Shown here piece after piece: positions 1,619 through 15,453 of a stretch of 64,000 bases of DNA. The stretch is from the NCBI GenBank assembly GCA_030754035.1, contig JASMBC010000004.1, positions 1 to 64,000 on the forward strand, read 5' to 3'. The stretch's first letter is position 1; the number at the start of each line of letters is the position of its first letter. A program made the translations under genes and the position numbers. Under the pieces are notes generated by a model. That model did not search any database. It was not told the DNA's origin and saw only the letters and a program-made list of their open reading frames with translations. Source of the DNA: Arenicellales bacterium (GTDB lineage Bacteria > Pseudomonadota > Gammaproteobacteria > Arenicellales > UBA868).

Positions 1619-2434
1619 TTAAAAAGCTAAGTCAGTAATCCACGGTGCCTCGTACTGTTTCGCGAGGTCTTCCAGTTTGCCACTGGCAATAAGCTGATTA
1701 AGCGCAGTATTTACAAAGCGCAAAATATCGGTATCCTCTTTGTGCATCGCCCAGGCGACCATGTTCCTGCTGTAAATCCGCCCGCCAAGCACCGCCTCTA
1801 TGCTCGACTGTTTTTCGAGCGCATGATAAGCCGCAACTGAGTCACCAATGGCAACGTCGACCTTTCCTGCAACGACCTGCAGCATATTCAACTCTTCCGT
1901 CTTAACAACACTCAACTTAGCATTGGGGGCCACTTTTTGTGCCCAGTCATGCTCACCGGTTCCCTGGGTAACCCCAATAGTTATACTGGCATTATTCAGG
2001 TCTTCGGGACTGTTAAACCGGGTATCCCCTTTTTTTGCTACTGCCCTGTAGCCAAGAAAATAAATAGGCTGACTGAAGTTTACGACCAAAGCTCTTTTCA
2101 TTTTCGAGTAGGTCGAGGCAACAGAGAGATCAATCTGTCTCGACTGTATACCCGCAATGAATGTGGCCCAGGCAAACTCCTTGAATACGCACTCTACTTC
2201 GATGGTCTCGCAGATGTATCGCGCGGCATCCACAAAGATACCCTTGTACTCGCCAGTATTAGGATCTTTGATTACATCAGGAGGAAAGGGGACAACCCCG
2301 ATGTTGAACTGCTTTGCTTTAGTGATGTCGGCCATATCTCTAGCTGCTGCAGGCGTCGTCACAAAAGACACCATTGCAATAATGGCGAGCAAAGACGATA
2401 GGAAGCGATAGTTAAACTTTTTTTTGCTAATCAT
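1619..2434 (-). CDS. Amino-acid ABC transporter, periplasmic substrate-binding protein
   Basis: This is a family 3 solute-binding protein (polar amino acid uptake), 271 residues. The ATG at 2434 was chosen over the upstream one at 2455 because AAAGGAGTGG lies just 5' of it. It begins with a basic start and a hydrophobic core ending near TTPAAA, a Sec signal peptide, so the mature protein is periplasmic. The mature part has the usual order: FNIGVVPFPPDV, GIFVDAARYICE, the SRQIDLSVASTYSKMKRA ligand-binding stretch, and VTQGTGEHDW in the second lobe. It is the last gene of a three-gene transporter operon with the ATPase and permease upstream on the same strand. The ligand is not determined. The neighbouring DUF1989 gene hints at an amino acid or guanidino/urea-like compound, by inference only. 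Confidence 0.88.
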   Translation of the reverse strand: MISKKKFNYRFLSSLLAIIAMVSFVTTPAAARDMADITKAKQFNIGVVPFPPDVIKDPNTGEYKGIFVDAARYICETIEVECVFKEFAWATFIAGIQSRQIDLSVASTYSKMKRALVVNFSQPIYFLGYRAVAKKGDTRFNSPEDLNNASITIGVTQGTGEHDWAQKVAPNAKLSVVKTEELNMLQVVAGKVDVAIGDSVAAYHALEKQSSIEAVLGGRIYSRNMVAWAMHKEDTDILRFVNTALNQLIASGKLEDLAKQYEAPWITDLAF

Positions 2435-2538
2435 AATTCCACTCCTTTTGGTCATTATGGGCGGCTGCCCATGGTTATACCCCCTGGAAAAGCGACCTTC
2501 CTACTTCGGTCGCGAAAAAAATCCAGAAGCAGATTTTG

Positions 2539-3321
2539 TTAGAATTTCTCATGGGCCATCAGTGAGAGAAATTCCCGGGTTCTTAACTTATTCGGATTCT
2601 TCAGAATTTTTTCTGGTGACCCCTCTTCAACGACCACCCCTTGGTCCATAAACACGACTCGATCTGCAACTCTAGACGCAAAACCAAGTTCGTGGGTCAC
2701 CACCAACATCGTCATACCCTCTTCAGCCAGTTGCCTCATAACATGGAGAACTTCGTCAACTAACTCGGGGTCGAGTGCCGAAGTAACCTCATCGAAAAGC
2801 ATGATTTGCGGGCGCATAGCCAAAGCCCGAGCAATGGCAACTCGTTGCTGCTGTCCGCCTGAAAGGCGTGATGGATATTCCTTACATTTTTCGCTCAGAC
2901 CCACCTTGGCCAGGAGTTCTTCGCCAATCTCCTGGGCTTCGTTTTTGGCCATTTTCTTTACCAAGATAAGGGCCTCGATAATGTTCCCGAGGGCGGTCTT
3001 GTGCGGCCACAGGTTAAATTGCTGAAACACCATGCCTACCTTCAGCTGCACTTTCCGTAATGCGGCGCCTTCAACGCGCTTTAGCTGGCCGTTGTGCTCA
3101 GCACGGCCCAACAGATCACCCTCAAGATAAATTCTTCCTTCATAATCATCCTCCAGGTAAGCGATGCAACGTAATAGGGTGCTTTTCCCGGATCCCGATG
3201 GCCCAAGGACACATACTACCTCCCCCATTTCCACTTCGAGATTGATCCCACATAGAACGTCAAGTGAGCCAAAACGCTTTTTGACGTCTTTTAAATGAAT
3301 GGCGGGAACTGTCGAAGGCAT
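2539..3321 (-). CDS. Amino-acid ABC transporter ATP-binding protein
   Basis: This is a 260-residue ATPase of the polar amino-acid uptake class (GlnQ/HisP type). It has a Walker [10 protein letters not shown] (residues about 40-48), a Q-loop in [13 protein letters not shown], the signature LSGGQQQR, a Walker B LMLFDE-like segment ([12 protein letters not shown]) and the switch histidine in VVTHELGF. Length and motif order are normal for the class. The usual TEPTSALD/DEPTSALD reads DEVTSALD here, a Pro-to-Val change that is seen in polar amino-acid ATPases. It starts 3 bp after the permease stop and sits between permease and binding protein, so the three are very likely cotranscribed. The protein would act at the cytoplasmic face of the inner membrane as a dimer. 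Confidence 0.93.
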
Positions 3322-3324
3322 CGA

Positions 3325-3987
3325 TTAATATCTCCGGGCAAAATAGATCTCGGAGCGCCTTGCAGCGAAAGCCACTGGAAAAATCAAAATAAAATACACA
3401 AGCGCGAGCACAGAATACATCTCCAGTGGCCGGAAATTATTCATGATGACATTGTCAATTGAGTGAAGTAATTCGTAGACACCAATCACTGAGGCCAGTG
3501 CCGAAAGCTTCAGGATATCGGCAAAATTATTAACTAGCGGCGGGAGCATTTGACGGGTGGCCTGTGGCAAAATGATTCGCCGCATGATCTGAAAGTAATT
3601 CAGTCCCAATATCTTGGCGGCATCAATATGTCCTTTGTCAACGGAAACGATTCCTGCGCGGAAAATCTCCGCCATGTAAGCAGACATATGTAAAGACAAC
3701 GCTACGACAGCAGCCCAGAAAGCATTCAATGTGATGCCCATGAGAATCGGAAGGCAATAGAAAATCCAGACGATCTGGATCAGCAGCGGGGTATCACGAA
3801 ATATTTCCACGTACCAGGAAGCAGGTAAGGAAAGGAGTTTACGGTGGCTCTGCCGAGCGATACCCACAAACAAGCCCAAAGTCACAGCAAAAAACACCGC
3901 CAACAAACTGATTTCAAGCGTAATCACGGCCCCTTTCAGGTAGACCATCCGATAATCCCAGATAACATCGAAGTTCCAGTCATACAT
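3325..3987 (-). CDS. Amino-acid ABC transporter permease
   Basis: This is an inner-membrane permease of the HisM/GlnP family, 220 residues from the ATG at 3987, which has GGAG six bases upstream. A longer frame to 4026 has no ribosome site. It has about five hydrophobic segments, the family start WDYRMVYLKGAVITLEISLL, the RDTPLLIQIVWIFY segment, and the EAA loop RAGIVSVDKGHIDAAKILGL followed by RRIILPQATRQMLPPLVNNF. Only one permease gene is present, so the channel is probably a homodimer. It is first in the operon, with ATPase and binding protein downstream. The promoter must lie in the 300 bp upstream, which also holds a TTAGTATGTT half-site like that in the 15.65-kb palindrome. Confidence 0.92.
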   Translation of the reverse strand: MYDWNFDVIWDYRMVYLKGAVITLEISLLAVFFAVTLGLFVGIARQSHRKLLSLPASWYVEIFRDTPLLIQIVWIFYCLPILMGITLNAFWAAVVALSLHMSAYMAEIFRAGIVSVDKGHIDAAKILGLNYFQIMRRIILPQATRQMLPPLVNNFADILKLSALASVIGVYELLHSIDNVIMNNFRPLEMYSVLALVYFILIFPVAFAARRSEIYFARRY

Positions 3988-4026
3988 GACGATCTCCTGT
4001 GGTAACCCATGAGCTCGTGGCGACAC

Positions 4027-4335: not shown

Positions 4336-4962
4336 TCATGTGGAATAGATGATGGCGCGAATCGGGGTCGGTTTGAAACCGGCTGCATTATTCAGGCACT
4401 CTGGGCAATTTGATAGAACTGCCAAGACATCCTGTTCCGCACGTAAACTGACGTAGTCTCCTGGTTTGGAGATGCCTGGGACAATGCCTATCGCACCGGA
4501 TTCGGCAACTGGCACGCGCATGAAAAAGTTAACATTGGCAACGATGTCTTTTTGATCCAGGCCATGTTTAGTGAGCTCCCTCTCAAAATTACCCTGGCAA
4601 CCGTTGCCGTTATTTTTCCCGAACCGTACATCATCGACTTCGACTGAACAACAGCCATATATCGTGTCATGGAAACCACAGGTGTCCTCAATTATGGTCA
4701 TCAATTTACGCGCTCGCACCGACCATAGTGCCGCACCTTGGCCTAGGTAGATGTTCCCATTAAGTTTGATTGTGTTTGCGGCGTTGTACCTATCAGCTAA
4801 GTCATCGAAACTATAACAAAGGAAATCCACTGCCTGCTGTCCTTCAAGATCAACTAAGCGAAGCACATCACCTGCAGCTAGCTTGGCGCTCCAGGGCTCA
4901 CCTTCGGGAACGACGGTGTCTTGCAGTATCGTCCCACCTTCAATCGGGTTAGTGAAAGTCAT
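4336..4962 (-). CDS. DUF1989 (urea-carboxylase-associated family) protein
   Basis: This 208-residue soluble protein of the DUF1989 family has a start supported by GGAG five bases upstream. Family marks are LRLVDLEGQQAVDFLCYS, the KLNGNIYLGQGAALWS segment, GCQGNFERELTKHGL, VNFFMRVPVAESG, and a C-terminal SNCPECLNNAAGF. Acidic, Cys and His residues in such motifs are likely metal ligands. Some DUF1989 members (the pair called UAAP1/2) act beside urea or guanidine carboxylase in carboxyguanidine deimination, and others sit in amine catabolic clusters. Only one member is present here and no urea carboxylase lies in the window, so the guanidine role is not supported directly. It is transcribed toward the amino-acid transporter operon on the same strand, and a shared substrate is plausible. 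Confidence 0.85.
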   Translation of the reverse strand: MTFTNPIEGGTILQDTVVPEGEPWSAKLAAGDVLRLVDLEGQQAVDFLCYSFDDLADRYNAANTIKLNGNIYLGQGAALWSVRARKLMTIIEDTCGFHDTIYGCCSVEVDDVRFGKNNGNGCQGNFERELTKHGLDQKDIVANVNFFMRVPVAESGAIGIVPGISKPGDYVSLRAEQDVLAVLSNCPECLNNAAGFKPTPIRAIIYST

Positions 4963-5398: not shown

Positions 5399-6187
5399 AT
5401 GCTCGCGCATGCGACCCTCTCGGTTCGCCATTATGAGCCCGGCCAGATGGACTTGGTCCATGATTGGCATCAGATCGTGTTGCCAATCGAGGGTACGCAG
5501 GACGTTGACTTTGGCCATACCGAAGGCACCATCGCTGCCGAGCGGGGTGTACTCGTCCCCCAGGGCCAACCCCATTTGATTCGCACCCGAGGCCGAAACC
5601 GTTTCATCATTGTCGATATTCCGTGTCCAACCAACTGTGCCTGGCTCATGCCGCAAGACATCTGGCGCAACGCCACTGCTGAACCCTTTTTTAATCTTGA
5701 TTCCGGATTGCGCCACCTTGTTGGATACGTAGCTCACGACTTAACCAATGAGGCACTTGGAACAACAACTGCTACTCATATGGCTGGCCTCGTTATTGAT
5801 GCGCTTACCAGCCGGCTCCGTCGCAGCTGGAAGTCCGCCGCAATCTGCCGGGCGCTGGAATTGATCCACACCCGTTACGCGGAGTCACTCACGGTATCCG
5901 ATCTGGCCGCTGCCGCCGGCCTATCGCCAACCACTTTTAACGAACATTTTCGTACAGCAGTAGGCCGTACCCCCCGCAATTACTTTATCAGAGTGCGTCT
6001 CGACCATGCGGCACGCCTATTACGTGCGTGTGATCTCTCAATCGCTGAAATTGCTCTGGCTACCGGCTTTTCCGACCAGAGTGCACTTACCCGTAGCATG
6101 CGTCGCCAACTCGGCATAACCCCCGCCCACATACGGGAAAAGGCGCGTCAGCCCACAGGCTCTTTTCGCCAAAAAAGTTTCGACTAG
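5399..6187 (+). CDS. AraC-family transcriptional regulator
   Basis: This is a 262-residue regulator whose start has a GAGGA site seven bases upstream. The N-terminal part (about 1-130) has the profile of an AraC-type cupin sensor, including HDWHQIVLPIEG and ERGVLVPQGQPHLI. The C-terminal part (about 160-255) holds the two helix-turn-helix motifs, with SLTVSDLAAAAGLSPTTFNE and the family signature IAEIALATGFSDQSALTRSM. It sits between the DUF1989 gene and the MoaD-AOR operon, reads toward the latter and ends 176 bp before it, so the AOR operon is a natural target (inference). Tandem palindromes lie upstream. The ligand is unknown. Confidence 0.9.
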   Translation: MLAHATLSVRHYEPGQMDLVHDWHQIVLPIEGTQDVDFGHTEGTIAAERGVLVPQGQPHLIRTRGRNRFIIVDIPCPTNCAWLMPQDIWRNATAEPFFNLDSGLRHLVGYVAHDLTNEALGTTTATHMAGLVIDALTSRLRRSWKSAAICRALELIHTRYAESLTVSDLAAAAGLSPTTFNEHFRTAVGRTPRNYFIRVRLDHAARLLRACDLSIAEIALATGFSDQSALTRSMRRQLGITPAHIREKARQPTGSFRQKSFD

Positions 6188-6363: not shown

Positions 6364-6642
6364 ATGCAAGTGGTGGTTGAGTTTTTTGGTCAGGCACGGC
6401 AAATCACCGATGCGTCAGAAATAGAACTAGAGTTAAAGGACGGCGCGGCGGTTTACGACATGCTGCAAGCATTGGCGTCCGTCTATCCGGTTTTTCTAGA
6501 AACTGTTATAGACGCTGCAAACTGGTCGCTCAAACCCTGTTTTATCCTTAACCTCAATGGTAAAACGATGATCAAGGATCCTGACTTTGCCCTGCCTGCC
6601 GGCTCTCGTCTTATTCTTATGTCGGCTGTGGTAGGGGGGTAA
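6364..6642 (+). CDS. MoaD/ThiS-like ubiquitin-fold sulfur-carrier protein
   Basis: This is a 92-residue beta-grasp protein ending in VVGG. The C-terminal Gly-Gly is the part that is adenylated and thiocarboxylated in MoaD and ThiS. It begins with a beta strand, MQVVVEFFGQARQIT, typical of MoaD. Family members donate sulfur to molybdopterin, which the next gene's enzyme needs as its tungsto- or molybdopterin cofactor. It ends 1 bp before the AOR start, so the two are surely cotranscribed. A MoaD-like gene directly upstream of an AOR is a recurring arrangement, and a dedicated pterin-sulfuration role is a reasonable inference. No MoaE or MoeB lies in the window. Confidence 0.85.
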   Translation: MQVVVEFFGQARQITDASEIELELKDGAAVYDMLQALASVYPVFLETVIDAANWSLKPCFILNLNGKTMIKDPDFALPAGSRLILMSAVVGG

Positions 6643-6643
6643 G

Positions 6644-8470
6644 ATGAACGGTTATACGGGCAAGGCATTGATCGTCGATTTGGCCGACCGAAATGCGATA
6701 GAACAAGCGCTCGCTGAATCGTTACTCCGTGATTATCTTGGCGGAGCAGGACTCGCGGTACGCTTACTCTATGATCATCTCACCCCGGGGGTCGACGCCC
6801 TGGATCCAGACAACGTCATTGTATTCAGTTGTGGTTTGTTTGCCGGAACCATTGTGTCAGCATCAGCAAAACATGCGGTTGCAACTAAATCCCCTCTCAC
6901 CGGCATGATTGGTGATGCGATGGCTGGGAGTTTTTTTTCCCATACTCTAAAGCGTGCCGGTTACGATGCCGTAGTCATCAAGGGAAAAGCCGAGGTGCCG
7001 ACCTATCTATTCATTGACGATAGTGACGTCTTTTTCCGCAATGCAGAAGCGATTTGGGGTCAAGGTTGCTTCGATACTGAAGAATTTATTCGCGAGGAGC
7101 TTGGCGATGAGGCAATACGGGTTTCATCGATCGGTCCAGCGGGTGAGAACCTGGTGCGTTACGCATGCATCAGTAACGATCGCGGTCGGCAGGCAGGGCG
7201 TACTGGGCCGGGAGCCGTCATGGGATCCAAAAATCTCAAAGCCATTGCGGTACGTGGATCTGGTGTTGTCAGTGTCGACAACAGCGCAGCTGTCTATCAA
7301 GTTACCCGTGAGCTAAATACTCTTGCGCAAGGTCCGGCTACTGGGAAATATCGCCACCCAGGCACGAACGGCAACGTTCTCGTTTTAAACCGTCTTGGTG
7401 TTTTCCCCACCCGAAATTTTCAAAGAACCGAATTTGCCAAGGCCGATCATATCTCCGGTGAAAATATATACCGCCATTACCATGACAAGACTGTAGCCTG
7501 TGCAGCCTGCCCCATAGCTTGCGAACAAATCATGAGGGTTGCCGGCGCAGAACCCCATGAAGGAGCACGAGTTTCGCTTGATTACGAAACTCTGTTCGCA
7601 CTAGGCCCGTGCTGCGATATCGATGATATACCAGCGATCATTCGCGCGGCGGAGTTATGTGACGAATTCGGCTTGGACACTATCAGCACTGGCGTGACTA
7701 TTGCCTGGGCGATGGAGGCTTTCGAGAAGCGATTGCTTAACGCCCAGGATGGATTCGAATTGCGCTTCGGTGACGCCGAGGCAATGGTCGCCGTGATCCC
7801 GATGATCGCCCAGCGTGAGGGGCTAGGCGCACTTCTAGCTGAAGGATCGAGAAGAGCTGCTGAAACGCTAGGCAAAGATAGTGACTACTTCGCCATGCAC
7901 GGCAAGGGGTTGGAGTTCGCCGGCTATGATCCACGTGGGATGAAGACTTACGCCCTCGGACTTGCAGTCGGCACGCGGGGAGCGTGCCATAACCGATCGC
8001 TAGCCTACGAACCAGACCTTCAAGGGCAAGTCGACCGTCATCTGGCAGAAAAGGGGCGCGGAGCACTGGCGATGAAGCAAGAAGATATCGCGGTGACACT
8101 AGATTCGGTTGGAGTCTGTAAGTTTTTGAGGGGCTGTTTTAGCGACATGTATGAAGAACTAGCTCAACTTTATACCAATGTGACCGGGTGGGATATGAAC
8201 TCGACCGAACTCCGCCGAGCAGGCGAGCGGATTTCCAATCTCAAAAAACTATTCAACATTCGCGAGGGTTGGACACGAGATCTTGATCGGTTGCCACCAC
8301 GAATTCACGAAGAATCCGTTCCCGATGGCCCAGGGAAAAACATTCCCTTCCCAAGGGAAGAGCTAGAGATTATGGTGGCAGACTATTATGAGGCCCGCGG
8401 GTGGACAGCCGACGGTAGGGTGACCCAACCAACGCTAGATCGCCTGGGATTAGCGGATGTCCCGTCGTGA
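6644..8470 (+). CDS. Aldehyde ferredoxin oxidoreductase family protein (tungsten/molybdenum bis-pterin enzyme)
   Basis: This 608-residue protein has the normal length for AOR, whose family members oxidise aldehydes to acids, or other substrates, and pass electrons to ferredoxin. It starts MNGYTGKALIVDL, like AORs. The [4Fe-4S] cluster ligands are visible as C286-x2-C289-x3-C293 and a late cysteine at about 492 (SVGVCKF). Pterin-binding features include the GPAGEN segment (about 164-169), the GRTGPGAVMGSKNLKA loop (185-200) and DYETLFALGPCC (313-324). Members also include the glyceraldehyde-3-phosphate and carboxylate-reducing enzymes and BamB of benzoyl-CoA reductase, so the substrate cannot be assigned. 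It overlaps the next gene's GTG by four bases. The iron-sulfur and flavin genes downstream are its probable electron chain. Confidence 0.93.
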   Translation: MNGYTGKALIVDLADRNAIEQALAESLLRDYLGGAGLAVRLLYDHLTPGVDALDPDNVIVFSCGLFAGTIVSASAKHAVATKSPLTGMIGDAMAGSFFSHTLKRAGYDAVVIKGKAEVPTYLFIDDSDVFFRNAEAIWGQGCFDTEEFIREELGDEAIRVSSIGPAGENLVRYACISNDRGRQAGRTGPGAVMGSKNLKAIAVRGSGVVSVDNSAAVYQVTRELNTLAQGPATGKYRHPGTNGNVLVLNRLGVFPTRNFQRTEFAKADHISGENIYRHYHDKTVACAACPIACEQIMRVAGAEPHEGARVSLDYETLFALGPCCDIDDIPAIIRAAELCDEFGLDTISTGVTIAWAMEAFEKRLLNAQDGFELRFGDAEAMVAVIPMIAQREGLGALLAEGSRRAAETLGKDSDYFAMHGKGLEFAGYDPRGMKTYALGLAVGTRGACHNRSLAYEPDLQGQVDRHLAEKGRGALAMKQEDIAVTLDSVGVCKFLRGCFSDMYEELAQLYTNVTGWDMNSTELRRAGERISNLKKLFNIREGWTRDLDRLPPRIHEESVPDGPGKNIPFPREELEIMVADYYEARGWTADGRVTQPTLDRLGLADVPS

Positions 8471-8982
8471 CCATGACCGCACCTGTACCGCTCTCACCTG
8501 AGGCCCGGTTTGTAGCCTGCGATCCCGAATTGTGTGTCGGATGCCAGTTATGCGAATTCGCTTGCGCTACTGTGAAGGATCCGCATGCCAACATCCTCAA
8601 GTCCCGTATCCGTGTTGCCCGCCATGAACCAAGTTTGATGGTCTCAGTGGCCTGTCGTGGGTGTGACGATCCGGCTTGTGTGCGGGTGTGCCCACAGGAA
8701 GGAGCACTCACCATTAACGTTGATAACCGCTTGATCGATGTCGACAATGACATCTGTGACGGCTGCGGGTGGTGCATAAACGTATGCCCGTTTGGTGCTG
8801 TTCTTCTCGACACCGATACCAAACGAGTAGTGATCTGTGATCTTTGCGCTCAGCGTGATAATGGTGCCGCCTGTGTCGAAATCTGCCCCAAGGATGCCTT
8901 GGAGATTGCATCTATCGAGATCATAACTAACAAAGCTAATGGCACTGCGGTACAAGCCTTGGTGAAAGAGCTTAATACTTAG
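8467..8982 (+). CDS. Four-cluster [4Fe-4S] ferredoxin-type electron-transfer subunit (first copy)
   Basis: This 171-residue protein has sixteen cysteines in four groups: C23/26/29 with C33, C63/66/71/75, C97/100/103/107 and C124/127/136/140. That is the HycB/HydN/DmsB pattern of four [4Fe-4S] clusters. It starts with GTG overlapping the AOR stop (GTGA); an ATG two codons later is also possible. The role is electron transfer from the AOR, most likely in a tight complex, in the cytoplasm; no signal peptide is present. The next gene is a close paralog. Confidence 0.92.
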   Translation: MTMTAPVPLSPEARFVACDPELCVGCQLCEFACATVKDPHANILKSRIRVARHEPSLMVSVACRGCDDPACVRVCPQEGALTINVDNRLIDVDNDICDGCGWCINVCPFGAVLLDTDTKRVVICDLCAQRDNGAACVEICPKDALEIASIEIITNKANGTAVQALVKELNT

Positions 8983-9001
8983 CCAGGATTAACTCTAAAA
9001 G

Positions 9002-9583
9002 ATGGGGCGTATGAACAGCGAACCGAATACCTTGGTAACTGACCAGCGTAAGTTATCAATTTCACCCCGATATCAGTATGTAACGTGCTCAAGTGCTCTG
9101 TGTGTTGGCTGTCAGCTTTGTGAGTTTGCTTGTGCCATGTTCAAAGATGAAACAATGAATGTCCTTCAGTCTCGAATTCGTCTGGTGCGCGTCGAGCCGG
9201 TACAGATGAAATCGATCGCTTGTCAGTCCTGTGCTGATCCAGCTTGCCTAAAGATCTGCCACCTACCCGGCGCGATGTTCATTAATGCAGAAAACGGCTT
9301 AGTCGCCATTGACGAGGACATTTGTGATGGCTGCACCCACTGTCTCGATGCATGCCCGTTCGGCGTCATCGCCCTAGATCCAGACACTAAGTTAGCCAAA
9401 ATTTGTGATTTGTGCGCAGATCGAGCAGAAGGGCCAGCCTGCGTGGAAATCTGCCCGAAGGATGCCTTAGAAGTTTTAACTCCTGAAGTGATTGCTCAGA
9501 GGAGTCGCAAAAACGCGTTGCACCAACTACTGGCAGAATGGGGAACAACTGAGTCTGAATCTATATGCGCTACTGTTGAGTAG
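9002..9583 (+). CDS. Four-cluster [4Fe-4S] ferredoxin-type electron-transfer subunit (second copy)
   Basis: This 193-residue paralog of the preceding gene has the same four cysteine groups: C34/37/40/44, C74/77/82/86, C108/111/114/118 and C135/138/147/151. It carries a longer N-terminal tail and a C-terminal extension. One cluster motif reads ICHLPG where a Pro usually follows the last Cys. Shared stretches such as ALCVGCQLCEFACA and ACVEICPKDALE show a tandem duplication. The start at 9002 is uncertain, and an in-frame ATG three codons later is equally possible. It lies 19 bp after the first copy and 34 bp before the flavoprotein, so it may bridge the AOR and the flavoprotein (inference). 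Confidence 0.9.
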   Translation: MGRMNSEPNTLVTDQRKLSISPRYQYVTCSSALCVGCQLCEFACAMFKDETMNVLQSRIRLVRVEPVQMKSIACQSCADPACLKICHLPGAMFINAENGLVAIDEDICDGCTHCLDACPFGVIALDPDTKLAKICDLCADRAEGPACVEICPKDALEVLTPEVIAQRSRKNALHQLLAEWGTTESESICATVE

Positions 9584-9617
9584 CAGAAAGAAATCACGAA
9601 CGAAGGAAAAATTAATT

Positions 9618-11402
9618 ATGCCGAACTTGAATGACGTGGTAGACCGGGCCATCAGCACCGATGTGCTCATTATAGGCAGTGAGGGAACCGGCGCTCGTGC
9701 TGCTCTCGAAATTCAAAAGGCGGGTCTCGACGTTACCGTAGTGACCAAGGGCGTTATGACCAAAAGCGGGGCAACTCTAACCGCGGATGGAGATATTGAC
9801 ATGGACAGTGCGAGTGCCACCGAGCGGCTGGGTGTCAAAGGCGATCTGCGTGACAGTCCGAGAATATTCTTTGAGGATATGGTTAGGGAGTCGAAATATA
9901 TCTCGAACCAAGAACTGGTTGATATCCACGTTAACGAAGCACCTGATCGAGTTGTTGAGCTGGTTGAGTGGGGTGCCAAAATTGACGGCATCGTATTGGC
10001 ACAAGGGCACACCTATCCACGTGGAGTTTGGATGCCCGGTGTTGAAATTATGAAGGCGCTTGAAGGGCAGATGAAAAAAGCACCCCATACTCTGGTTGAA
10101 AATTTCATGGTTGTCGAACTGCTCAAGAGCGGTGATCGGGTGATCGGGGCAGCCGGATTCGCACTAAACACCGGTGAGTTCTGGGCAATCACAGCGAAGG
10201 CCGTGATCATGGCGACTGGTGGTGGTCTTCGACCCTACCCCCACACCACCGCCCCAGAGGAGCTCACCGGTGATGGACAAGCGATAGCTTATCGTGCTGG
10301 TACGGAGATGATCGACATGGAATTTCCCATGTTTCTTCCGTACTGTTTGTTGTCGCCGGTGGGCATGGATGGGGTGGATTTTCCATTCCTATTGACCTAC
10401 TTCCTTGATGCTTACGCGTTGAATCGTAATGGTGAGCGCTACATGTCGAAGTGGGATCCAAAACGGATGGAAAAATCGACCCGGGATATTAATTCTATCG
10501 CTCAGGCAATAGAGGCTCTGGAGGGGCGAGGCGGACCCAAGGGTGGGACCTATCTGTCTTTGACCCATCTGCCAGCGAATCTGGTTGAAGATAGTGGTCG
10601 CTGGCTCCCGATCGGGATGAACGAATGGCGCTACGGTGAGTTCGACCTTAAAGCGTTCTTACCCGACCTACAGAAAGTCGCTGTCGAGGTCGGCCCAGCA
10701 TGCCATTACCAAAACGGCGGCATCCAGATCAACGCCCAATGCGAGACAAATATCGACGGCTTATTTGCAGCCGGTGAAGGGACTGGCAGTCTGATGGGTG
10801 GCAACCGGATTTCAGGTAATGCGGTCACCCAAACTCAAGTCTGGGGGGTGCGCGCTGGAATCAGTGCAGCAGCCTATGCCAGTGAACACGATGCTGTTGC
10901 TCCTGATCCGGCGAAGCTACAAACTATTCGCGACCGCTGTCAAGCTCCACTATTGAAAGATAACGGGCTTTCCCCGATCAAGATGCGGCAGCAACTACAG
11001 CAGCTCGCTGGTGACAAAATCGGCGTGGTTCGAGATCAAGCTGGCTTGGAAGAGGGGCTGAAAGGCCTTGAGGAATTGGAGCAGTGTTTGCCCGATCTTG
11101 CTACCAAACACAAAGGGAAGATCTACAACCGCGAATGGTTGGAGGCATTACAGATGCCCAATCTGGTTCTTTATATGCAAATGGTGGCAAATGCAGCCTT
11201 GACTCGAAAGGAAAGTCGAGGGGCACACTATCGTTTGGATCACCCAAAAAGTGACAATACGGACTGGCTAAAGAACGTTATCGTGTCACAAAAAGCGGGC
11301 AAGATGTCGATATCAGCTAAACCGGTGGTCATCAAGCATATCGAGCCGCCCGCGGGGGTTTTCGATTATGGGCACATTCCAGACGGGAGGTGGATCACAT
11401 GA
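9618..11402 (+). CDS. FAD-dependent oxidoreductase of the fumarate reductase/succinate dehydrogenase flavoprotein superfamily
   Basis: The protein has 594 residues from the ATG at 9618, preceded by AAGGAA; a longer open frame overlaps the ferredoxin gene and lacks a site. The dinucleotide fold is TDVLIIGSEGTGARAALE near the start, and a second FAD-binding stretch is AVIMATGGG. The C-terminal FAD motif is INAQCETNIDGLFAAGEGTG, followed by GGNRISGNAVTQTQVWG. The histidine used for covalent FAD in SdhA/FrdA is absent: the place reads MTKSGATLTADGDI. The QFHPT and EGxRGEGG motifs of true fumarate reductases are also missing (it reads EFPMFLPYC). HYQNGG and the NR and TRD arginines remain. It is probably a relative acting on another acceptor or donor. 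The following [2Fe-2S] gene overlaps it. Confidence 0.88.
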   Translation: MPNLNDVVDRAISTDVLIIGSEGTGARAALEIQKAGLDVTVVTKGVMTKSGATLTADGDIDMDSASATERLGVKGDLRDSPRIFFEDMVRESKYISNQELVDIHVNEAPDRVVELVEWGAKIDGIVLAQGHTYPRGVWMPGVEIMKALEGQMKKAPHTLVENFMVVELLKSGDRVIGAAGFALNTGEFWAITAKAVIMATGGGLRPYPHTTAPEELTGDGQAIAYRAGTEMIDMEFPMFLPYCLLSPVGMDGVDFPFLLTYFLDAYALNRNGERYMSKWDPKRMEKSTRDINSIAQAIEALEGRGGPKGGTYLSLTHLPANLVEDSGRWLPIGMNEWRYGEFDLKAFLPDLQKVAVEVGPACHYQNGGIQINAQCETNIDGLFAAGEGTGSLMGGNRISGNAVTQTQVWGVRAGISAAAYASEHDAVAPDPAKLQTIRDRCQAPLLKDNGLSPIKMRQQLQQLAGDKIGVVRDQAGLEEGLKGLEELEQCLPDLATKHKGKIYNREWLEALQMPNLVLYMQMVANAALTRKESRGAHYRLDHPKSDNTDWLKNVIVSQKAGKMSISAKPVVIKHIEPPAGVFDYGHIPDGRWIT

Positions 11403-11758
11403 CCCAGGTGCGGAAGATAAAAGTTAAATTACAGCGTTTTGACCCAAATATCTCGGCCCCGGATTTTTCGGAATATGAGGTGCCGGTAGAACCCGGCTCA
11501 AGCGTTATGAATGTCCTTACCTACATATACGAAAATATCGATTCTTCGATCGCCTACTATACCTCATGCCGCATTGGTAAGTGCCTTGGCTGCGACATGG
11601 GGATCAACGGTACGGTCGACTATGCGTGCACAACACCTGTTCCCGTAGATGATGATTTGACAATAACACCATTACCGGAATATGTAAGAGTCAAAGATGT
11701 CACGATCAACCGCGCCCGACCGAAACGTCCGACTGGGAAAAAACCTGTCATTGCCTAG
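11399..11758 (+). CDS. Short SdhB/FrdB-like [2Fe-2S] ferredoxin-domain protein
   Basis: This is a 119-residue protein from the ATG at 11399, which overlaps the flavoprotein stop as ATGA and has GGAGGTGG upstream. It matches the N-terminal plant-type [2Fe-2S] domain of SdhB/FrdB: a beta-grasp start (RKIKVKLQRFDP), then the ligand loop SCRIGKCLGCDMGING and a later DYAC. The whole C-terminal half of a normal SdhB, with its 4Fe-4S and 3Fe-4S clusters (about 120 further residues), is absent. The frame ends with a basic tail RARPKRPTGKK. Those missing clusters could be supplied by the two ferredoxins of the operon (inference). It is the last gene of the operon. Confidence 0.86.
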   Translation: MTQVRKIKVKLQRFDPNISAPDFSEYEVPVEPGSSVMNVLTYIYENIDSSIAYYTSCRIGKCLGCDMGINGTVDYACTTPVPVDDDLTITPLPEYVRVKDVTINRARPKRPTGKKPVIA

Positions 11759-12743: not shown

Positions 12744-13694
12744 TCATGACGACTTTAATAGCGGGATGACCTCCCTCGCTATCGCTTGAATCTGTTCCAT
12801 TTCGTAGCGGTAGGGAACAAAAATTATCCTGTCTACACCAGCGTCTACGTGAGCCTGTATTTGTTCGAGACACTCGCCCGGTGTACCCATGATTGCACTG
12901 TCTGGAGTTGACTTACTCCATTTAGCAAAATCCCACTCCGTATTTAGCCATTCATTCATCGGCCCCTCGACCTTCGAACGAGGACCGACAACTATGGGAA
13001 TTTGGTTACAACTTGTGAGAGTTGATGGGTCTCTACCAGCTTCTTCAGCAAAGGTACAAACTTTACGCCAATCTGTCGCGAAATCATTTGGTGTGTAAAA
13101 GTAGGTCAGCCAACCATCACCCCTTACTCCTGCACGTTTCAGAACACGATCGACATATCCTCCAATCAACAGTGGTGGTCTCGGGCTTTGCACCGCCTTT
13201 GGGAACATTCGCGCGTCCCGAAGATTATACGGGCCAAATTCACCTGTCACCCAGTCTTCAGTCAGCAAGTGATTCATGATATCCAAATAAAGATCCATGA
13301 TTTTTCCACGCTGATGAAAATCAACACCGACAGCATCAAATTCTCGTTTGTACCAACCGGACGCCACGCCGAGTGTCAGCCGCCCATTAGAAATATGGTC
13401 GATACTGGTTAACTGTTTAACTAACGTGACCGGGTTTCGCAACGGTAACACAAGAACACCTATACCTAGTTTGACCTTCTGTGTAGTAGCTGCTAACGCC
13501 GCTAGCAGGGTTAATGAATCAATGATCGGAAAACAGGGATCAACGCCCAACAAAATATGATCCCAGACCCAGACTGACTCATAGTTCAACTCTTCCGCGC
13601 GTTGTGCGAACCTAATGAGCTGCTGGGTATCCGGCACGTTGGGATAACTCTCGAAATTACCCAAGGCTACGCCGAATTTCACCGGTGTCCTCAT
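12744..13694 (-). CDS. Luciferase-like (LLM) flavin/F420-dependent oxidoreductase
   Basis: The protein has 316 residues. It has the bacterial-luciferase-like TIM barrel: VKFGVALGNFESYP, a VWVWDHILL strand-loop, KVKLGIGVLVLPLRNPVTLVKQLTSIDHIS, and GVASGWYKREFDAVGVDFHQRGK. This matches the TIGR03619-type subfamily, whose members use FMN or F420 and carry out oxidations of diverse small molecules. The cofactor and substrate are not set by the sequence. It is on the same strand as the CoA-transferase pair, with a 24-bp gap, so it is likely in one operon with them and possibly with the GntR gene downstream. Confidence 0.86.
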   Translation of the reverse strand: MRTPVKFGVALGNFESYPNVPDTQQLIRFAQRAEELNYESVWVWDHILLGVDPCFPIIDSLTLLAALAATTQKVKLGIGVLVLPLRNPVTLVKQLTSIDHISNGRLTLGVASGWYKREFDAVGVDFHQRGKIMDLYLDIMNHLLTEDWVTGEFGPYNLRDARMFPKAVQSPRPPLLIGGYVDRVLKRAGVRGDGWLTYFYTPNDFATDWRKVCTFAEEAGRDPSTLTSCNQIPIVVGPRSKVEGPMNEWLNTEWDFAKWSKSTPDSAIMGTPGECLEQIQAHVDAGVDRIIFVPYRYEMEQIQAIAREVIPLLKSS

Positions 13695-13718
13695 CCTAAC
13701 TCCCTATCCGAAACCAGA

Positions 13719-14486
13719 TTAAGCAGTGTAGATGCGATCCGGATCGAATTCCTGCAAAACACTTAACTCCCGGTCGGTAGGTGACTCGGTTGTTTCAATA
13801 CCGTTTGCCTTGATATCAAAACTTGTGTTATCCCGGACTTCATTCAAGGTAACGCCTGGATGCAGCGCCTCTACTACCATTTCTCTGGTGACTGGATCAA
13901 AGCCGAGGATCGCGAGATCTGTCACGACTTTAAACATTCCTCCTGCAGGTAATCCCGCCTCTGCCCTGCTGGTTCCACCATCGAGAAACCCCGGGCTGGT
14001 AACAAAATCAACTTTTTCAACAAATCGTCGCCTTTCATGCTTCATTGTGACAATCATCTGCGTCAGGCTGGATATATCATTGCCACCCCCGGTACCAGGA
14101 AGGCGAATCTTAGGATTGCTTGGATCACCAATGTAGGAACTATTGAGATTACCGTACTTATCTATCTGTGCACCACCCATAAAGCCGACGTCTACATAGC
14201 CTCTTTGAAGCAACAGCAACACATCAGTAATCGGCAATATCATATTTGCTTTACGCGTGCACCGCTGCTCGTTGGTGGACGGTGGCAACTCTCCCGGTAC
14301 CACAAACGGCCCCAGCACGCCGCCCTCAAATAAGATGGTTAATCCTGGTGCATGAAGACGTTGCGCCAATGTCGCCGCGAGCAACGGCACCCCAACGCCT
14401 GCGAATACTACCTGCCCATCTCGCAAGATTCTCGCACTCATGATGGCAAGCAACTCTGAGGAGGTATGGTTTGCTCCCTCAATCAT
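13719..14486 (-). CDS. CoA-transferase beta subunit (glutaconate/3-oxoacid CoA-transferase family)
   Basis: The subunit has 255 residues from the ATG at 14486, with GGGAGGAG upstream and an 8-bp overlap with the alpha gene. The catalytic-type glutamate is visible at residue 54 in LFEGGVLGP, the EGG/ENGxxG motif of family I CoA-transferases. A glycine-rich LPGTGGGNDISS segment and GFMGGAQIDKYGNLNSSYIG are also family marks. With the alpha subunit it should move CoA between an acyl-CoA and a free acid by a glutamyl-CoA intermediate. It most resembles the glutaconate CoA-transferase B group. The true acid is unknown. Confidence 0.9.
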   Translation of the reverse strand: MIEGANHTSSELLAIMSARILRDGQVVFAGVGVPLLAATLAQRLHAPGLTILFEGGVLGPFVVPGELPPSTNEQRCTRKANMILPITDVLLLLQRGYVDVGFMGGAQIDKYGNLNSSYIGDPSNPKIRLPGTGGGNDISSLTQMIVTMKHERRRFVEKVDFVTSPGFLDGGTSRAEAGLPAGGMFKVVTDLAILGFDPVTREMVVEALHPGVTLNEVRDNTSFDIKANGIETTESPTDRELSVLQEFDPDRIYTA

Positions 14487-15453
14487 TGACGATACTCCTC
14501 CCTCGACGTGAGGCATCGAGCAACTCAGTTACCCCCAACAGGGAAAGGTAATCTGCCCAGTTCTTCGGCTCCCGATAGTAGCGGTTCAAATACTCTTCCA
14601 CGCCTGCCACTGGATCCCGCCGGGTTGCTTCAGCATAGGCGCCAAGATGTGAGAAAAACGGCTCGTAATTGCCGTAACACTCGTGCGGGGCTGCCCCAAA
14701 CGGGGCCTCAACTACCGCATCGACAGTAAGGAAAGGTATCTTTGTCTGATCCGGTGTTCGCCGAATCTGGTCATTCGAGATAATCCTCTCAGTGGTTAAA
14801 ATCACTCGCTTGGCAGCCATTGCTATATCAAGATCCATGAATTGCAAACCATCTAACTGCGCATTGCCGTATTTATCCGCGCGTTGGACATGTATTAAAG
14901 CCGTATCCGGATTGAGCGCGGGCAATAGCAGCAACTTGTCATCGGTATACGGACAAATCATTTCCTTGACGCTTTCAGTTACCACGTCACGCACGCCAGA
15001 CCCGAGCATCGAACGGGTTGGCATAAAGGGTATCCCCATTGCACCAGCACGGTAACGTAAACCCATCGACATATGGCTCCATTCCTCAAACTTGGCCACA
15101 TGGTTCTCTGTGAAGTGACGCATGACTTGAGAAATGCCCCAAACAATGCCCTGACTAAACCAGCTGGTAATAATGTGGTCACTGACACCCGATGCATACA
15201 ATAGATCGCCTTCAGTCGAAACGATACTACGGGAGACAGTTAGTTTTCGTCTTCCACTACGGATAAGTGCCCAAAGCATAGCTATTGGCGTCCTGGACAT
15301 TGTGCAGCCGCCAATAGCAACATGCTCGCCATCACTAACAAAAGACGCCGCCTCTTCGAGTGTCATTACTTTTTCCCGCAGGCTTCGGTCACGAACTGCC
15401 GTTTCGTCTCGCAGCTTTTGGTAAGTTTTTGGCAACGTTGATGCGTGTCCCAT
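14479..15453 (-). CDS. CoA-transferase alpha subunit (glutaconate CoA-transferase A-like)
   Basis: This 324-residue subunit begins with an N-terminal extension of about 30 residues before MTLEEAASFVSDGEHVAIGG. The GG segment is the family's CoA-binding loop. Other marks are GMGIPFMPTRSMLGSG-like (residues around 140-155), PALNPDTALIHVQRADKYGN and GLQFMDLDIAMAAKRVILTTE. It heads a probable operon with the beta subunit and the LLM oxidoreductase. Pairing by overlap indicates a heteromeric enzyme. Its promoter lies in the 535-bp divergent region shared with the M20 gene, which carries a strong palindrome. Confidence 0.9.
   Translation of the reverse strand: MGHASTLPKTYQKLRDETAVRDRSLREKVMTLEEAASFVSDGEHVAIGGCTMSRTPIAMLWALIRSGRRKLTVSRSIVSTEGDLLYASGVSDHIITSWFSQGIVWGISQVMRHFTENHVAKFEEWSHMSMGLRYRAGAMGIPFMPTRSMLGSGVRDVVTESVKEMICPYTDDKLLLLPALNPDTALIHVQRADKYGNAQLDGLQFMDLDIAMAAKRVILTTERIISNDQIRRTPDQTKIPFLTVDAVVEAPFGAAPHECYGNYEPFFSHLGAYAEATRRDPVAGVEEYLNRYYREPKNWADYLSLLGVTELLDASRRGRSIVND

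Follow-up and report, generated by a model that had tools for sequence, protein, structure and literature searches.

A June 2026 survey of ~4,000 WOR neighbourhoods distinguishes five subunit classes, among them bifurcating (class IV) and membrane-linked (class V) enzymes, and lists no FrdA-like subunit; neither "fumarate" nor "succinate" appears in its main text (PMC13328260). Known W enzymes pass electrons through polyferredoxins (PMC10413684). AorABC of Aromatoleum aromaticum, a class III enzyme, consists of WorL with one four-cluster polyferredoxin and an FAD subunit of the NAD-linked pyridine nucleotide oxidoreductase type, with MoaD-like genes in the operon (PMC6365974; PMC10413684). An earlier, sequence-only reading of the locus presented here had given free ferredoxin or an NAD-linked subunit as the usual AOR partners; the list is longer and takes in classes IV and V (PMC13328260).

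The locus lies in a stretch of 64,000 nucleotides, analysed as a whole and referred to as the window, and combines an AOR with a flavoprotein of the fumarate reductase superfamily in one six-gene operon (Table 1). The ORF list and the domain scans agree on the same-direction run at 6364–11758 that had been reported, with gaps or overlaps of at most 34 bp: all six genes are on the + strand and the intergenic gaps from MoaD to Fer2 are, in order, 1, −4, 19, 34 and −13 bp, the start of FeSa overlapping the end of AOR by 4 bp. The two tandem HycB-like four-cluster proteins of that reading are also borne out, with 16 cysteines arranged in four motifs in each of FeSa and FeSb, as is an SdhB-like protein with the [2Fe-2S] half only, since Fer2 matches PF13085 alone and its four cysteines (C60-x4-C65-x2-C68-x11-C80) have SdhB-type spacing. 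The MoaD-like "WorX" product we take to be a sulfur carrier for the pterin cofactor. A TM-like stretch is absent from all six proteins (highest 19-residue Kyte-Doolittle mean 1.66), as is an RR pair from their first 40 residues, and all six are predicted from sequence to be soluble. Promoter and terminator scans gave no more sites than were found in shuffles. The AraC-family gene is, by its position, a possible regulator of the operon.

Table 1 Features of the six-gene operon and of its neighbours in the window
Feature	Position	Strand	Description
ABC transporter, polar-amino-acid type (SBP, ATPase, permease)	1619..4026	-	associated, outside operon
AraC-family regulator	5399..6187	+	PF12833 2.8e-23; just upstream of operon
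MoaD/ThiS-like protein, "WorX" type (MoaD)	6364..6642	+	92 aa, C-terminal GG; PF02597 E 1.6e-6, TIGR01687 3.3e-8
AOR/WorL large subunit (AOR)	6644..8470	+	608 aa; PF01314 3.3e-121, PF02730 8.5e-74
Polyferredoxin, WorS/AorA/HycB-like (FeSa)	8467..8982	+	four 4Fe-4S motifs
Second polyferredoxin (FeSb)	9002..9583	+	four 4Fe-4S motifs; 52% identical to FeSa
FAD protein, fumarate reductase/SdhA superfamily (Flav)	9618..11402	+	594 aa, ATG at 9618; PF00890 1.3e-50, PF02910 7e-31; TfrA/SdhA-like
SdhB N-terminal half only, one [2Fe-2S] (Fer2)	11390..11758	+	122 aa; PF13085 1.4e-19

Other parts of the window hold a truncated xanthine-dehydrogenase-type molybdenum-binding domain that runs off the window start (2–826), a stand-alone DUF1989 protein of the urea amidolyase-associated family, divergent from the operon (4336–4962; the family also occurs near the flavoprotein pair at locus L025), and, downstream on the - strand, an LLM-class oxidoreductase and a CoA-transferase pair (12744–15453).

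How does the operon compare with the described classes? Its AOR aligns over the full length with PfAOR (1aor; E 3e-128), and the residues C286, C289, C293 and C492, which had been picked out as cluster ligands, correspond in this alignment to PfAOR C288, C291, C295 and C494, while E315 and H449 sit at the positions of E313 and H448, the catalytic Glu/His pair of PfAOR. The AFOR_N and AFOR_C domains, the four-Cys 4Fe-4S site and the Glu/His pair place the protein in the AOR/WOR (WorL) family, and its metal is predicted by family membership to be W. None of the survey's five class definitions fits the six-gene operon, though a single unlisted instance is possible (PMC13328260). The operon shares a WorL and a WorS-type protein with the ferredoxin-linked class II enzymes, described there as WorL and WorS only, but differs in having a second WorS-type polyferredoxin, the flavoprotein and Fer2 (PMC13328260). 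It shares WorL, a four-cluster polyferredoxin, an FAD subunit and MoaD-like operon genes with AorABC, which has neither an FrdA-like nor a [2Fe-2S] subunit (PMC6365974; PMC10413684). The locus encodes no AorC homologue or WorN NAD(P)-linked FAD subunit (IPR023753 type), and the flavoprotein instead has FAD_binding_2 and Succ_DH_flav_C domains, which upholds the earlier view that it is not NAD-linked. Operon neighbours include no WorABC (NuoF/NuoE/HydA-like) gene as in class IV, and neither the RR pair nor the TM-like stretch of class V is found. Literature searches, which covered open-licence papers, turned up no AOR described as having an FrdA-like partner subunit. HDCR likewise has two HycB-type polyferredoxins alongside two different catalytic subunits, a hydrogenase and a formate dehydrogenase that they join, and its HycB3 and HycB4 are among the best solved-structure matches of FeSa and FeSb; however, both enzymes are unrelated to the operon's catalytic subunits, for which a bridge or filament of this type is a putative feature.

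The flavoprotein had been described as FrdA/SdhA-like, which holds by descent (PF00890, PF02910), but its residues oppose fumarate or succinate as substrate. In the HMMER alignment to E. coli SdhA and in a 36-row alignment, Ala (A52) occupies the position of the covalent-FAD His and Leu (L240) that of the distal-carboxylate His (SdhA H242 / Fcc3 H365), and the carboxylate anchor R289, H363 and R397 is kept. Across the subfamily the distal position is L, M, I, V or Y in the 36-row alignment, in which the SdhA paralogues of the same genomes, a positive control, retain both His. The FAD_binding_2 and Succ_DH_flav_C fold and the Arg/His/Arg anchor place the protein in the broad fumarate reductase superfamily, and with FrdAB/SdhAB and TfrAB the operon has in common this flavoprotein fold, the anchor and the [2Fe-2S] half of the B subunit; it differs from them, and from fumarate reductase and succinate dehydrogenase in general, in lacking both His, the 4Fe-4S/3Fe-4S half of SdhB and a membrane anchor gene. 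With these two determinants missing, fumarate and succinate are unlikely substrates, and the FAD is probably non-covalent. A respiratory complex-II-like role was rejected, there being no SdhB cluster half, anchor gene, TM or Tat; a quinone route like that of complex II is unlikely, given that the C-terminal SdhB clusters are missing from Fer2 and that every protein appears to be soluble. The subfamily lacks both His of the SdhA paralogues and keeps the carboxylate anchor, which argues for an acceptor other than fumarate. Such an acceptor has a precedent in urocanate reductase (UrdA), which carries Tyr in place of the equivalent His and does not reduce fumarate (PMC7921117). UrdA shares the superfamily, the retained Arg/Arg/His anchor and the replaced fumarate His, but has Tyr instead of Leu, contains an FMN domain and is described there without an Fe-S partner (PMC7921117). 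The AlphaFold model of the flavoprotein has an SdhA-like fold (pLDDT 70.6; best PDB match 7d6v_A, 5.7e-31), from which no pocket was read because pLDDT is low around the active site, and the FeSb monomer model is poor (pLDDT 45).

The six genes recur together beyond the window. A same-genus genome, G001 (Acidiferrobacteraceae bacterium NP54), has the identical six-gene cluster, and a GTDB contig scan with a two-sequence flavoprotein alignment returned 72 loci, among them one in the Rhodospirillales MAG G426. The G426 AOR is 73% identical and lies on a 195 kb contig carrying all six homologues (FeSa 64–66%, FeSb 70–73%, Fer2 44%, Flav 49%), with two MoaD homologues (45% and 49%), one of which is a further MoaD-like gene nearby; a PucR-type regulator stands in place of the AraC-family one. 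The complete set turns up a second time in G426, at 44–73% identity, so the association exceeds chance, and the six genes are a real, conserved association in two genomes placed in different classes (Acidiferrobacteraceae, Rhodospirillales). A scattered order in relatives had been named as evidence against the proposed system. The set is kept in G001 and in the distant G426, but a strictly conserved order was rejected: MoaD-AOR-FeSa is as in the window, and the remaining three genes, still on the same strand, run Fer2-Flav-FeSb. FeSa directly follows AOR and FeSb adjoins the flavoprotein in both clusters. The FeSa and FeSb orthologues (66% and 73%) are closer than the FeSa-FeSb paralogues (52% and 58%), so the duplication would predate the split between window and G426, and, as read from the proteins, both copies are retained in both clusters. 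The full set is known in three genomes, all MAGs and two of one genus, with no further full cluster among the sampled genomes (1928 over all searches, overlaps included). The contig scan used two exact peptide patterns that would miss the AOR-linked flavoprotein of G426 itself, and the cluster may therefore be commoner than these counts suggest. Plasmids yielded distant relatives only (AOR ≤46%, flavoprotein ≤34%), and megablast of phage and E. coli genomes gave no match.

Other AORs served as a partial control, many of the 69 loci spanning just 1.5 kb of flank. A WorS-like protein alone accompanies 35 of them and none of the other five genes is found at 31; the flavoprotein is near AOR at three, all clade members. 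This flavoprotein as an invariable AOR companion was accordingly rejected, 66 of the 69 loci not having it close by.

G426 contains a second Flav-Fer2 pair (L023), 77% (Flav) and about 70% (Fer2) identical to the window proteins, next to an ABC transporter homologous to that of the window at about 70–75% DNA identity; the contig ends shortly past Fer2. Directly upstream of its Flav, L023 9805–9960 shows similarity to the C-terminal portion of FeSb (38% across 66 positions, one gap; E 2e-10 for a search space of 360 bases; 28/34 identical at the DNA level), and this short stretch may be a degenerate FeSb remnant, left when the AOR half was deleted. The AOR-linked G426 copy groups with L023 and the window flavoprotein in a single clade (100/99) of a 32-row tree, and the AOR-free L016 falls outside it; on the simplest reading, the AOR link would have arisen once in this clade and been lost at L023. 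Flav and Fer2 also occur together at L016, L024–L027, L032, L034–L036 and L181, with no AOR detected in the stretch searched, some of these being short, and AORs lie elsewhere in several of the genomes with AOR-free pairs. Fer2 adjoins the flavoprotein in the two AOR clusters as well as in the AOR-free relatives checked, and the pair is a separable module that is common without an adjacent AOR. The coupling of the AOR and flavoprotein genes is thus confirmed for one clade only, and the use of unrelated partners, named by the sequence-only reading as a ground for abandoning its proposal, is in part what was found, since most Flav-Fer2 relatives have no adjacent AOR. For the same reason, and because L023 keeps the 77% pair with the AOR half missing, the pair can work with another partner. 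Recurrent Flav-Fer2 neighbours (M20, M24/creatinase, creatininase, DUF1989, OCD, RidA and PALP proteins) suggest nitrogen-compound catabolism. Flavoproteins without the fumarate His form a widespread superfamily group (window, L157, L016, L023–L027, L032, L034–L036, L090, L181) whose members almost invariably have as partner an SdhB-like protein limited to the [2Fe-2S] cluster.

The reading that we favour, at somewhat less than an even chance, is that of a soluble redox enzyme with two heads, or failing this a coupled operon, in which oxidation by AOR would drive reduction of a carboxylate by the flavoprotein. The rationale is that the six homologues stay together in G001 and distant G426 despite the permutation, that the AOR-linked flavoproteins and L023 form one clade, that FeSa and FeSb orthologues stay distinct in both clusters, and that none of the 66 other AOR loci (many with 1.5 kb of flank) has the flavoprotein close by. 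Electron coupling between AOR and flavoprotein is likely; the complex itself, the route and direction of the electrons, the metal and the two substrates are predicted. MoaD would help to make the pterin cofactor, and AOR would oxidise an aldehyde to the acid at the metal. Electrons would pass from the AOR 4Fe-4S cluster through FeSa, FeSb and the [2Fe-2S] cluster of Fer2 to the non-covalent FAD, FeSb and Fer2 together replacing the missing cluster-bearing half of SdhB, and the flavoprotein would reduce an unsaturated or otherwise reducible carboxylate, probably not fumarate, held by R289, H363 and R397. The direction of flow is drawn from general redox knowledge. We put forward with still more reserve that this is a sixth kind of WOR, a soluble complex in which aldehyde oxidation would directly drive reduction of a carboxylic-acid acceptor via two polyferredoxins, without NAD, free ferredoxin or a membrane quinone. 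If the six proteins are one enzyme, a new electron outlet is added to the five-class scheme, aldehyde oxidation is paired in soluble form with acid-acceptor reduction, and the large flavoprotein-Fer2 family gains its first testable electron donor.

An alternative hypothesis, itself rather unlikely though ranking close behind, makes AOR and the flavoprotein two dehydrogenases within a single catabolic pathway, such as that of a nitrogen-containing acid; the polyferredoxins would collect electrons from both and hand them on to an external acceptor, for instance ferredoxin. It stands so close because the same bacterium has an AOR beside a DAO flavoprotein with a polyferredoxin C-terminus (four motifs), an arrangement kept in two relatives; the amino-acid and amide catabolism genes that adjoin Flav-Fer2 relatives point the same way. 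However, the operon has no gene for a common outlet, and in this superfamily a non-covalent FAD usually accompanies catalysis in the reducing direction, as in the reductases Fcc3 and UrdA. The DAO-type FAD oxidoreductase-polyferredoxin fusion lies at L019:7443-9161 (G000:C31) with its AOR at L019:5598-7430 and an HcnB-like protein upstream; AORs of G014 and G003 likewise have the DAO part next to them, at 83%.

It is improbable that the genes are co-regulated neighbours between which no electrons pass, AOR with FeSa and FeSb being an ordinary ferredoxin-linked class II enzyme and Flav-Fer2 a separate enzyme of the same pathway. This would suit the occurrence of Flav-Fer2 alone in many phyla and the common pairing of AOR with one WorS-like protein, but both clusters keep two distinct polyferredoxins, of which one invariably adjoins the flavoprotein, and this exceeds the needs of class II; the possible FeSb remnant next to the flavoprotein of L023 also speaks against it. 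Least plausible by far is a reverse flow, with the flavoprotein oxidising its own substrate and thereby powering the reduction of an acid by AOR. Acid reduction requires a very low potential, far below that of flavoproteins in this superfamily, and the operon has no bifurcating subunit, even if AORs can reduce acids with low-potential donors, which meant Ti(III) in the work cited (PMC6365974).

The same genome also encodes an ordinary AorABC-like operon (FeS, AOR, NAD-type FAD protein and MoaD; L018:4486-8771, G000:C48) that is followed by a moaA-like gene. A fourth, divergent AOR of 741 aa (L020:4870-7991, G000:C48) has a tail that ends in ISGG and looks MoaD-like by eye; it adjoins an HTH-shikimate kinase regulator resembling BoxR, with an enoyl-CoA hydratase-like gene near.
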